NCBI RefSeq assembly: GCF_000165505.1
Contig: NC_014632.1
Coordinates: 434,001 to 498,000 of the forward strand
Reading direction: 5' to 3'
DNA: 64,000 nt
Origin: Ilyobacter polytropus DSM 2926
Lineage (GTDB): Bacteria > Fusobacteriota > Fusobacteriia > Fusobacteriales > Fusobacteriaceae
Shown here in pieces: positions 59,385 through 62,530 of the stretch. A model generated the notes under the pieces. That model was not told the DNA's origin. It ran no database searches and saw only the letters and a list, made by a program, of their open reading frames with translations. Both the position numbers and the translations under genes were made by a program. Each line of letters begins with the position of its first letter. Position 1 is the stretch's first letter.

Positions 59385-60023
59385 TTAGTATATAATCTCG
59401 TATTTATCTTCAGCTTTTTTAAATATTAATATAATAATAGAAGATACAGCTAAGTATATAAGTCCACATAAAATAAAAGGCATTATTGTGAAATCTCTAG
59501 CAACGATCTCTTTGGAATTTCTAAGAATCTCAGCCATACCTATTGAAGATATTAACGCAGTATCCTTGACCAGGTTCACCGCCTCATTAGATAGGGCAGG
59601 TAAAGACATTCTAAGGGCCTGAGGAAGTATAATATGCCTCATAGTCTTAAAATAATTCATACCAAGGACTCTAGAAGCTTCATATTGTCCTTTTGGAATA
59701 CTCTGGATACATCCTCTTAAAATTTCACAGGTGTAAGCAGAATAGTTTAGGATAAATGTAAGTGAAGCCGCGGTAAATGGTGTAAGGGTGATACCCATAA
59801 CCGGTAGTCCGTAGTATACGAAAAATAACTGAAGGAGAAGAGGGCTACCTCTAAATATCCAGGTATAGAGGGCGATACCTCTTCTGACGAATACACTTTT
59901 AGAAACTCCTCCTAAAGACAGAAAAAGTCCGAGGGGAAGAGCCAAAACTCCTGTGGCAATATACAGGAGGGCTGTTAACTTTAGCCCGCCTAGTATATAA
60001 ATAAGCATACCCTGCGTTTCCAT
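59385..60023 (-). CDS. Polar amino-acid ABC transporter permease
   Basis: A 212-residue permease of the HisMQ/GlnP family with about five helices. The conserved coupling region is N-Y-S-A-Y-T-C-E-I-L-R-G-C-I-Q-S-I-P-K-G-Q-Y-E-A-S-R-V-L-G-M (spaced residues), followed by I-I-L-P-Q-A-L-R. ATG 60023 is used because AAGGAGG lies 5 nt upstream and the codon overlaps the stop of the receptor gene. The longer frame (to 60047) would overlap further. No ATPase gene follows. A histidine-type attenuator precedes the operon, so histidine uptake is the best guess. Confidence 0.92.
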   Translation of the reverse strand: METQGMLIYILGGLKLTALLYIATGVLALPLGLFLSLGGVSKSVFVRRGIALYTWIFRGSPLLLQLFFVYYGLPVMGITLTPFTAASLTFILNYSAYTCEILRGCIQSIPKGQYEASRVLGMNYFKTMRHIILPQALRMSLPALSNEAVNLVKDTALISSIGMAEILRNSKEIVARDFTIMPFILCGLIYLAVSSIIILIFKKAEDKYEIIY

Positions 60024-60811
60024 TACGCCTCCTTGCCACCAAACCACTTGTCGTGGATCGTGTCAAAAGTTCCGTCTTTTTTCATTTCGTCAAGAATTTT
60101 ATCGATCTCTTTCTTTAATTTTTTATCTTCTTTTCTAAGTCCTACACCAAAGTCCTCTTTACCTAGGGCCTTATCTAGAGATTTGAAAATATCTTTTCCC
60201 TCTCTAGCTTCTTTTTTAGCCGCATAATATTCTCCTACAATTACATCCATTACTACTGCGTCGATTCTTTTTGCCTCAAGGTCCATAAGAGCTTCGGCAT
60301 TAGTAGCGTATTTTTTGATTTCAGAAGCACTTTCTGAGATAGGGTTCTTCATAACGAGTGTGTAGCTGCTGCTTCCAAGCTGTACTCCTATGATTTTACC
60401 CTTTAGGTCTTCTGCTGTTTGGATTGGGCTGTCAGCTAAAGTCATTATAATTTGATCATTTGCAAAGTAAGGTTCAGAAAATGCTATCTGCTCTTGTCTT
60501 TCAGGAGTTATTGTCATTCCGTTCCAAACCATGTCTATATTTCCACTCTTTAATTCAAATACTATGCTGCTCCATTCACGAGGAGAAAACTCAGCCTCTA
60601 CACCCATTCTGCTTGCCACTTCTTTTGCCAGGTCAATATCAAATCCTACAATTTCTCCACTTTCATCTCTGAATCCCATTGGAGCAAAAGTATCATCTAG
60701 ACCCACTATAAATTTACCCTGTTCTTTGATTTTGTCATAAGAATCTGTGCTTTTCTTTCCACACCCTAAAAGTGCTATTGTAGCTAAAAAAATTAATACG
60801 ATTTTCTTCAT
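60023..60811 (-). CDS. Polar amino-acid ABC transporter substrate-binding lipoprotein (family 3)
   Basis: A 262-residue family 3 solute receptor with lipobox I-A-L-L-G-C-G (Cys 17). The mature domain has F-I-V-G-L-D-D-T-F-A-P-M-G-F, G-F-D-I-D-L-A-K-E-V-A, W-N-G-M-T-I-T-P-E-R, F-S-E-P-Y-F-A-N-D-Q and G-V-Q-L-G-S-S-S-Y. The family binds His, Arg, Lys, Gln, Glu or Cys. The motifs do not settle which, but the leader peptide upstream has three consecutive His codons. AGGAGG lies about 6 nt before the ATG. It is translationally coupled to the permease. Confidence 0.93.
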   Translation of the reverse strand: MKKIVLIFLATIALLGCGKKSTDSYDKIKEQGKFIVGLDDTFAPMGFRDESGEIVGFDIDLAKEVASRMGVEAEFSPREWSSIVFELKSGNIDMVWNGMTITPERQEQIAFSEPYFANDQIIMTLADSPIQTAEDLKGKIIGVQLGSSSYTLVMKNPISESASEIKKYATNAEALMDLEAKRIDAVVMDVIVGEYYAAKKEAREGKDIFKSLDKALGKEDFGVGLRKEDKKLKKEIDKILDEMKKDGTFDTIHDKWFGGKEA

Positions 60812-60850: not shown

Positions 60851-60888
60851 TAAAAAAAGCCACCTGGTAAAAAAGACCTAGATGGCTT
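60851..60888 (-). terminator. Attenuator terminator (3:4 stem) upstream of the amino-acid receptor gene
   Basis: On the minus strand AAGCCATCT (60888-60880) pairs with AGGTGGCTT (60865-60857), one G-T pair, followed by seven T (60858-60852). It lies 40 nt before the receptor start codon, in the leader. Confidence 0.88.
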
Positions 60889-60994
60889 AAGTTTCTAAAG
60901 AATGTAAATTTTTCTCTTAGCCACCAGTATAAAGCAATTTAAATATAATGCAGTAAAGGCTAGTATTCTTAATTACTAAAAAGAGATACAAACC

Positions 60995-61048
60995 TTATAT
61001 TTGGTGGTGATGAATTTTAGTTAGAGGTCTATCGGATTTATAAAACAT
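60995..61048 (-). CDS. His-rich leader peptide
   Basis: A 17-codon frame, MFYKSDRPLTKIHHHQI, with codons CAT CAC CAC for three consecutive His just before the end. An excellent ribosome site AGGAG (61061-61057) lies 8 nt before the ATG. It is preceded by a good promoter and followed by the alternative stems of an attenuator. The peptide itself is not expected to have a function; its translation senses charged tRNA-His. Confidence 0.82.
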   Translation of the reverse strand: MFYKSDRPLTKIHHHQI

Positions 61049-61077
61049 GACTAATTCTCCTAGTTTATCTTTCTGAA

Positions 61078-61106
61078 ATAGTACAGGTAAAGCGTAAAAA
61101 AGTCAA
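61078..61106 (-). promoter_or_regulatory. Promoter of the leader-receptor-permease operon
   Basis: On the minus strand TTGACT (61106-61101), 17 nt, TACTAT (61083-61078). The start would fall near 61071, 23 nt before the leader-peptide ATG. Confidence 0.75.
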
Positions 61107-61213
61107 GGGCTTTTTCCTGACTTAAAATTTCCCCTTTAATTAATATGAAGGGAAAAGATTGCTTTTTTTAAAGAAATTACTTATTATATTGTATATAAAT
61201 TAGGAGGGTGCTT

Positions 61214-62530
61214 ATGAAAGGAAAAAAAGGTGTGTATACGGCAAGCCTAGGTTTGATCGGATCAGCTATAGGTCTTGGGAATCTCTGGAGATTTCCATAT
61301 ATGGTTGGAAAAAATGGTGGGGGAGCTTTTCTTATAGTTTATTTTTGCTTTGTTGCTTTGCTTGGAATCCCCCTTATGTTAGGGGAGTTTGTACTTGGAA
61401 GAAGTTCACATGCAGGTATTGTGGGAGCTTTTAAAAATTTCACTCCTGGGAAACCTTGGTATCTAGCAGGGGGGTTAGGAATACTAACCTCTAGCCTTAT
61501 ACTGGGTTTTTACGGAGTTGTAGGAGGATGGTCATTGAGATTTTTCTACCTTTCCTCTACCAATGCCCTTATCAACAAAAACCCTGATGAATTGGGGAAT
61601 GCTTTCAGAAGTTTTATTACTTCACCTGCAGACCCGATATTTTGGCAGGTTTTATTTATGGTGATAACGGCTCTTGTACTTATAAGTAAGATAGAAGGAA
61701 GCATAGAAAAAATAACCAAAATAATGATGCCGATGCTTTTTCTTATAATAATGGTTCTTTGTATGAAGGCACTTGTCCTTCCTGAATTAGGAAAGGGTAT
61801 GGCATTTTTTCTGAAGCCTGATTTTTCCAAAATTACTGCAGGGGGAATACAGGCCGCCATGGGTCAGTCATTTTTCAGTCTCAGTATAGGGATGGGAGTG
61901 CTTATAACATACGGATCTTTTATGAAAAGAGATGAAAATCTTTTGGTTTCAGCTCTTCATGTTATAGGTACAGACACACTTGTGGCATTTTTGATAGGAG
62001 TTATTGTTTTTCCAGTAGCCTTTACTTACGGAATAGATCCTGAGTCAGGTCCGGGTCTTATATTTACTACACTGACGTCTCTTTTCAATGAGATACAAGG
62101 AGGATACGGATTAGGAGTGATGTTCTTTTTGCTTCTATTTTTGGCGGCTTTGACTACTGCGATCTCTTTATTAGAGTCTGTTGTGACGTGTCTTAATAAT
62201 CAGTGTAAATTACCGAGAAATACAAGTGTTTTAATTGCAACTGTAATTATAACAGCTTTAGGAGCTGTAACTTCGTTATCTCTTGGAGTTTGGGGAGAAA
62301 GTAATATATTCTATGTCTTAGATTATATAACAGTGGACGTTTTTCTACCTGTTATGGCCATGCTGACCTCTTTTTATCTTGGTTATGTTCTAGAATTAAA
62401 AGTAATTAAAGAGGAGATGTCAAATGACGGAATTCAGTTTAAATATACTAAGCACTTACAGATGATGTTAAAATTTGTATGTCCTGTTATTATAGCTATT
62501 GTTCTTTTAGGTGGCTTGGCACTGAATTAG
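61214..62530 (+). CDS. Sodium-dependent transporter of the neurotransmitter:sodium symporter (SNF) family
   Basis: A LeuT-fold protein of 438 residues with about 11 helices. Helix 1 has L-G-L-I-G-S-A-I-G-L-G-N-L-W-R-F-P-Y (sodium and substrate site). Later marks are N-G-G-G-A-F-L-I-V-Y, E-F-V-L-G-R, G-Q-S-F-F-S-L-S-I-G-M-G in helix 6 and an acidic F-N-E-I-Q-G-G-Y loop. Bacterial members take up amino acids such as Leu, Trp or Tyr with Na+. ATG 61214 is 6 nt after GGAGG; the GTG at 61208 overlaps that site. It diverges from the amino-acid ABC operon. Confidence 0.93.
   Translation: MKGKKGVYTASLGLIGSAIGLGNLWRFPYMVGKNGGGAFLIVYFCFVALLGIPLMLGEFVLGRSSHAGIVGAFKNFTPGKPWYLAGGLGILTSSLILGFYGVVGGWSLRFFYLSSTNALINKNPDELGNAFRSFITSPADPIFWQVLFMVITALVLISKIEGSIEKITKIMMPMLFLIIMVLCMKALVLPELGKGMAFFLKPDFSKITAGGIQAAMGQSFFSLSIGMGVLITYGSFMKRDENLLVSALHVIGTDTLVAFLIGVIVFPVAFTYGIDPESGPGLIFTTLTSLFNEIQGGYGLGVMFFLLLFLAALTTAISLLESVVTCLNNQCKLPRNTSVLIATVIITALGAVTSLSLGVWGESNIFYVLDYITVDVFLPVMAMLTSFYLGYVLELKVIKEEMSNDGIQFKYTKHLQMMLKFVCPVIIAIVLLGGLALN

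Follow-up and report, generated by a model that had tools for sequence, protein, structure and literature searches.

What controls the amino-acid transporter genes on the minus strand of a 64,000-nucleotide stretch of the Ilyobacter polytropus DSM 2926 genome (NC_014632.1, positions 434,001 to 498,000, hereafter the window; the genome is 3.13 Mb in three contigs), and is the element upstream of them peculiar to this locus? A first-pass annotation, made from the letters alone, had described a complete histidine-codon transcription attenuator at this position and had placed the DNA, as probable, in the Fusobacteriota, a placement with which we agree. Reading of the minus strand from 61106 to 60851, together with RNAduplex calculations, confirms every part of that description: the promoter, the AGGAG site, the 17-codon reading frame with CAT CAC CAC, the four pairing regions and the run of seven T residues. 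We conclude that the element is very probably (probability about 0.92) a ribosome-mediated transcription attenuator for histidine uptake, and a member of a homologous Fusobacteriota family that can be reprogrammed by exchange of its codons. The features of the locus are as follows.

61078..61106, minus strand: sigma-70-type promoter TTGACT-17-TACTAT, read in the sequence (TTGACT 61106-61101, TACTAT 61083-61078, 17 nt spacing)
60995..61061, minus strand: leader gene, with Shine-Dalgarno AGGAG at 61061-61057 and the 17-codon reading frame MFYKSDRPLTKIHHHQI plus stop at 61048-60995 (ATG at 61048, TAA at 60997-60995); read in the sequence and recovered as the leader ORF in the comparison of loci
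61004..61012, minus strand: regulatory codons CAT CAC CAC, read in the sequence; the His run is conserved at orthologous loci
60995..61009, minus strand: region 1, from the His codons to the stop, partner of region 2 (duplex energy; covariation in relatives)
60985..60994, minus strand: element A (GGUUUGUAUC), immediately 3' of the stop codon, pairing with B (A:B covaries across the family)
60958..60968, minus strand: element B (GAAUACUAGCC), partner of A or alternatively of C (duplex energy; family covariation)
60947..60957, minus strand: U-rich stretch following B (AUUUUGURUU in the family consensus; conserved in alignment A2)
60916..60932, minus strand: element C, or region 2 (UUAUACUGGUGGCUAAG), the antiterminator 5' arm (sequence; duplex energy)
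60877..60891, minus strand: region 3 (CUUAAGCCAUCUAGG), common to antiterminator and terminator (sequence; duplex energy)
60852..60868, minus strand: region 4 and T-run (ACCAGGUGGCUUUUUUU), the intrinsic terminator 3' arm (sequence; duplex energy; covariation)
60023..60811, minus strand: first regulated gene, for the receptor of an amino-acid ABC transporter (262 aa), which probably binds histidine (family match; structure model)
59385..60047, minus strand: second regulated gene, for a permease of 220 aa of the ABC transporter type (family match)

By RNAduplex, region 1 pairs with region 2 at -10.6 kcal/mol (CCACCA..UAUAA with UUAUA.CUGGUGG), region 2 with region 3 at -13.6 kcal/mol (GGUGGCU(A)AAG with CUU(A)AGCCAUC), and region 3 with region 4 at -14.8 kcal/mol, the T7 run lying at 60858-60852. 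Antiterminator and intrinsic terminator are mutually exclusive, as the annotation had claimed; they have region 3 as their one common strand, as pairing energies and covariation bear out. A further element was absent from its account: GGTTTGTAT, within 60994-60985 after the stop, pairs with AATACTAGCC (60967-60958), and this hairpin is the A:B hairpin conserved in the attenuator family, standing directly after the leader stop as GGUUUGUAU/AAUACUAGCC with -7.1 kcal/mol in RNAduplex. The alternative B:C stem is shrunk in the window to 5 bp (UAGCC:GGCUA, -7.7 in RNAduplex). The folding energy of the whole window leader does not improve on that of shuffled sequence (z=0.04), and the case for the element thus rests on comparison and not on energy.

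The annotation had named, as checks on the proposal, that leaders of orthologous genes should keep the His codons and show covariation, and both are found. Across the phylum 70 orthologous receptor loci were compared, and 45 have a leader, which as a rule ends in HHHHHR before the stop (TIHHHHHR or LHHHHRY as the usual fuller endings) and has CHHR alone in some Leptotrichiaceae; it is missing at the receptor in 12 genomes of one Leptotrichiaceae genus and in several of genus g6. In these receptor leaders the terminator conformation has 93.5% of cells paired, against 31-47% for slid structures, with double changes in 18 of 31 pairs (9.7 in shuffles) and 77 double-change cells (22 in shuffles), values reached by 0 of 500 shuffles, although the shuffle statistics, like the swap statistics given below, are inflated by the relatedness of the members. 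The terminator helix itself is doubly changed in relatives at 11 of its 12 pairs, and the alternative B:C stem has 86.7% of cells paired. When the window's genus (three genomes) is left out of the leader profile, a search of the 64 kb still recovers exactly 61020-60853, with E=2.7e-6. The core-only profile without that genus gave no convincing match to the window element (best E about 1), and this miss, together with the 5-bp B:C stem, is why we call the window's own core worn.

We note some variation among the receptor loci. At two of them (L127, on G044 C145, and L043) the receptor orthologue has a terminator with similar arms, preceded by a reading frame (MNVEFCPLNNQHIEF...) that lacks a His run; the leader there is either of different specificity or decayed. 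Five Leptotrichiaceae receptor leaders (L134-L136, L138, L154) have two His codons only, often preceded by Cys (SMCHHR before the stop), and a different terminator, AGCUCUCAGG..CUGAGAG, and two further leaders (L198 and L209) read CMS and CSHRC before transporter genes. Upstream of the g6 receptor (L028, L032, L130) there is no His leader, and another terminator, ACCAUUUAGU..ACUAAAUGGU, is flanked by the complementary stretches UAGUAGACUAAAGUAA / UUACUUUAGU; these regions are perhaps an attenuator of another kind.

The two genes downstream of the leader are of the polar amino-acid ABC type, one encoding a receptor and the other a permease, and control of such a transporter by a His-codon attenuator, as first proposed, is supported by the comparison of sequences. 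The receptor fits the polar amino-acid substrate-binding proteins (HisJ/LAO type) in fold and sequence, and the best structure match to its AlphaFold model (mean pLDDT 89) is 4OHN, a Streptococcus pneumoniae receptor with histidine bound, a likeness that supports, without proving, the earlier prediction of histidine as the substrate. Directly after the receptor-permease pair on the minus strand there is no ATPase gene. The divergent gene at 61208-62530 (plus strand) resembles, by eye, sodium:neurotransmitter-type symporters; such symporters lie downstream of Trp-codon leaders in other genomes, and this one has no leader of the family.

The annotation had treated the locus as a single element, and here our results part from it: the attenuator appears real, and it is not isolated. 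A covariance model of the His leader matched in 63 of 98 genomes, many with several matches, and further covariance-model loci had the same RNA core with other codon runs and a matching gene downstream. Codon runs across the family are for His, Thr, Tyr, Trp, Phe, Pro, Asn, Met and Cys, and the window's genome (G000) has at least six members, the window's HHH leader included. The other members are given below, with gene names checked for representatives by NCBIfam or Pfam.

Thr leader TTTTLT, thrS downstream; own genome (L185, G000 C1:1809611)
His leader HHHHHC, hisZ and a his operon downstream; own genome (L186, G000 C2:841445)
Tyr leader YYYYYH, tyrS downstream; own genome (L187, G000 C1:1891240)
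Aromatic leader NWYFYYYF, DAHP synthase downstream; own genome (L235, G000 C2:513731)
Trp leader NWIHWWF, trpS downstream; own genome (L236, G000 C1:1660527)
Pro leaders P-I-P-P or P-M-V-P, putP downstream; other genomes
Asn leader NNNNNN, asnA downstream; other genomes
Met leader MMMM, with metN, metG, homoserine dehydrogenase (hom) or O-acetylhomoserine sulfhydrylase downstream; other genomes
Thr leader TTT, asd downstream; other genomes
Cys/Met leader CMC, sulfite-reductase-like gene downstream; other genomes
W-rich leaders, sodium:neurotransmitter-type symporters downstream; other genomes

Codons and genes correspond: in the final 14 residues of the leader, the amino acid expected from the gene has a share of 30%, compared with 8% when gene families are permuted (13 families), and 0 of 200,000 permutations reach the observed value. 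Two leaders with no obvious match, L250 (aromatic codons, glycerol-dehydrogenase-like gene) and L251 (Trp codons, oligopeptide-type receptor), were excluded from this test. A core-only model (R2), which starts about three bases before stem A and includes almost no coding sequence, still recovers additional leaders with codons appropriate to the gene. Five model hits (L188, L264, L265, L272, L274) were discarded as false, there being no leader at those places; L278, from a Clostridium, was judged no leader, and L281 was not readable as one.

What the members have in common is seen in alignment A2, in which 55 leaders of several specificities show one order of core elements: RRRUUUGU (A), a variable loop, RUACARAYYC (B), AUUUUGURUU, a second variable loop, and RRUYUGUAUC (C). 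Across the family the A:B stem has 96.9% of cells paired, with 50 double-change cells against 18 expected, and the B:C stem 85.4%, with 79 against 32; since B covaries with both A and C, it behaves as a two-way switch. The AUUUUGURUU element (A2 columns 48-57) is conserved across specificities outside both stems and looks like a polymerase pause signal, and the corresponding stretch of the window, 60957-60947, is a possible RNA polymerase pause site.

Might the locus be explained without attenuation? An ordinary intrinsic terminator following a small gene, with a His run there by coincidence, would suit an AT-rich genome, a run of three His codons only and a folding energy like that of shuffles. 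Set against this, HHH occurs in 1 of the 135 short reading frames of the 64 kb window (8-35 aa, with a Shine-Dalgarno site), the leader ORF alone, the leader is kept at orthologous loci in other genera, and its competing helices covary; the window leader is more than chance, and coincidence seems to us a very poor explanation. A histidine-binding riboswitch, with the core binding the amino acid directly and the small reading frame incidental, could appeal to the strong sequence conservation of the core 3' of the stop, but is made highly improbable by the occurrence of this same core before genes for at least eight amino acids, by the variation with the gene of the codon run and not of the core, and by a reading frame with a Shine-Dalgarno site and a stop at the same place in 110 members.

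Binding of uncharged tRNA-His to the leader RNA, as in a T-box, has some precedent, in that his transporters are under T-boxes in Firmicutes (PMC9413887), and a few T-boxes occur in Fusobacteriota. Scanning of the window, along with 35 related loci, against Rfam, however, matched neither a T-box nor any other leader family (RF00514, His_leader, gave no match there at the gathering score), RF00230 is above cut-off in only 2 of 98 genomes of the phylum, and T-boxes do not feature a translated reading frame with 3 to 6 like codons in a row, so that we give this reading next to no credence. We note that the window's genome has sub-threshold T-box matches before asnB- and asnS-like genes (L286, G000 C2:76647-78809), whereas in other genera Asn-codon attenuators stand before asnA.

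The attenuation reading would work as follows. With histidine ample, the ribosome would pass the His codons, region 1 would pair with region 2 with A:B inside, and region 3 would be left for region 4, stopping transcription. With charged tRNA-His scarce, the ribosome would stall on the His codons and block the 1:2 pairing, region 2 would be left for region 3, and transcription would continue into the genes for receptor and permease. We infer stalling, timing, pausing and on/off direction from the sequence, in which the parts, the covariation, the codon-gene match and the common core can be read directly.

The scheme is consistent with how the codon-bearing strand matches its partners. The mean pairing energy of region 1 is -11.6 kcal/mol with its own region 2, against -7.4 with a region 2 for other amino acids, the own pairing beating the swapped mean in 52 of 65 representatives (p=1.8e-9; p=9e-6 for non-His members alone), and the own 2:3 pairing has -7.6 against -5.7 kcal/mol when swapped (p=4.9e-5), all p values being made optimistic by kinship. 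Among Asn members the own-partner advantage for 1:2 was not seen. The codon run and its complement appear to change together, the core remaining constant. In 109 of 110 members, 12 nt or more separate the start of the regulatory codons from A, and the median distance from stop codon to A is 3 nt (110 members, in an ORF search that confined the stop to about 27 nt either way).

In a folding model, covering the codon run with a ribosome removes 1:2 and increases mean 2:3 pairing from 0.11 to 0.32; by another measure the increase in the window element is from 0.64 to 0.90. The region-2 sides of 1:2 and 2:3 overlap in 56 of 59 cases, and these results together support a predicted switch centred on the competition of 1:2 with 2:3. 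In many members region 3 is mostly unpaired at equilibrium, even with the codon run covered. With a ribosome on the stop codon the equilibrium model of the window element still favours 2:3, which implies that shut-off would need release of the ribosome. The 2:3 helix overlaps B:C only partly, and neither the region-2 overlaps nor the masked folding separate A:B from B:C plus 2:3 as the starvation state; the part of B in the switch could be that of a kinetic step, a pause hairpin or a signal of the ribosome at the stop.

Do the leaders of different specificity have a common ancestor, or did they arise separately for each amino acid and converge on a similar hairpin? That leader peptides originated independently more than once has been argued earlier (PMC2965389), and the core is short. 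Convergence would nevertheless have to account for unpaired as well as paired positions alike in order and sequence across specificities, with UUUGU in A, ACARA in B, UNUUG after B and CUGUAUC in C all kept, and for two almost identical Met cassettes that one genome has upstream of metN and of metG (L248, L249), which suggest duplication. We consider separate origins unlikely, and common descent is the best reading of these alignments.

How does the family compare with systems already described? Like the enterobacterial his leader (RF00514), the window element has a leader ORF, a His run near the stop, alternative nested pairings and an intrinsic terminator; it differs in that it would control uptake and in having an RNA core common to leaders for other amino acids. 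The his, trp and other leaders of E. coli are not known to have one RNA core in common. A 2004 survey by Vitreschak and colleagues reportedly predicted attenuators for histidine transporters, so uptake control is not new in itself. With T-boxes the family shares one RNA scaffold in which exchangeable codons set specificity, and control of synthetases, biosynthesis and transporters, but it has another structure and would respond to a ribosome translating the codon run and not bind tRNA.

The annotation called ribosome-mediated attenuation best known from Proteobacteria, but leader-peptide attenuation is not restricted to that group: PMC9413887 predicts his attenuators in Firmicutes (Bacillus cereus group, Peptostreptococcaceae and Erysipelotrichales), PMC2965389 a His leader upstream of hisS paralogues of bacilli, and PMC1262725 trp, leu and ilv attenuators in Actinobacteria. 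The Firmicutes his attenuators resemble the present element in their three to five His codons and a terminator and antiterminator before his genes, and differ in that the main text of PMC9413887 reports them for his genes only and makes no mention of Fusobacteriota. The leaders uORFC-8-2 and uORFC-13-1 (cysS, aroF; PMC8632094) and the actinobacterial trp and leuS attenuators (PMC1262725) likewise combine matching codons in a leader ORF with a terminator switch, some standing before synthetase genes as in the Fusobacteriota family, but in the text consulted each belongs to one amino acid and one lineage and no common scaffold is reported. None of these four papers, in the parts consulted, describes Fusobacteriota leaders or a scaffold common to several amino acids.

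Searches of 50 genomes outside the phylum and 341 of a Clostridium's class indicate that a few Clostridia share the core. In the real-looking cases the same core goes with a His run upstream of a hisZ-like gene (L280, L282-L285) or with a Tyr or Phe run upstream of a symporter gene (L275, L279); the hisZ leaders may be among or near the attenuators of PMC9413887. In the open-access literature we found no description of a core family with swapped codons, and the Fusobacteriota family is apparently undescribed.

Leader-peptide attenuators are usually seen as one-off inventions, operon by operon, whereas here one core is found phylum-wide, with differing codon runs, ahead of genes for synthetases, biosynthesis and transporters, and it defines an RNA element with no match in Rfam. 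Its specificity would be predictable by reading the codons, as with T-boxes, and the family yields substrate predictions for transporters otherwise unspecified. It is also a natural experiment, in that a swap of codons must be matched elsewhere in the RNA. We think it fairly likely that much of the amino-acid regulon of the Fusobacteriota is under the control of a single ancestral RNA cassette that duplicates and in which codon run and complement are exchanged, a ribosome-reading counterpart of the T-box, with the A:B hairpin and AUUUUGURUU serving as its common pause and switch module.
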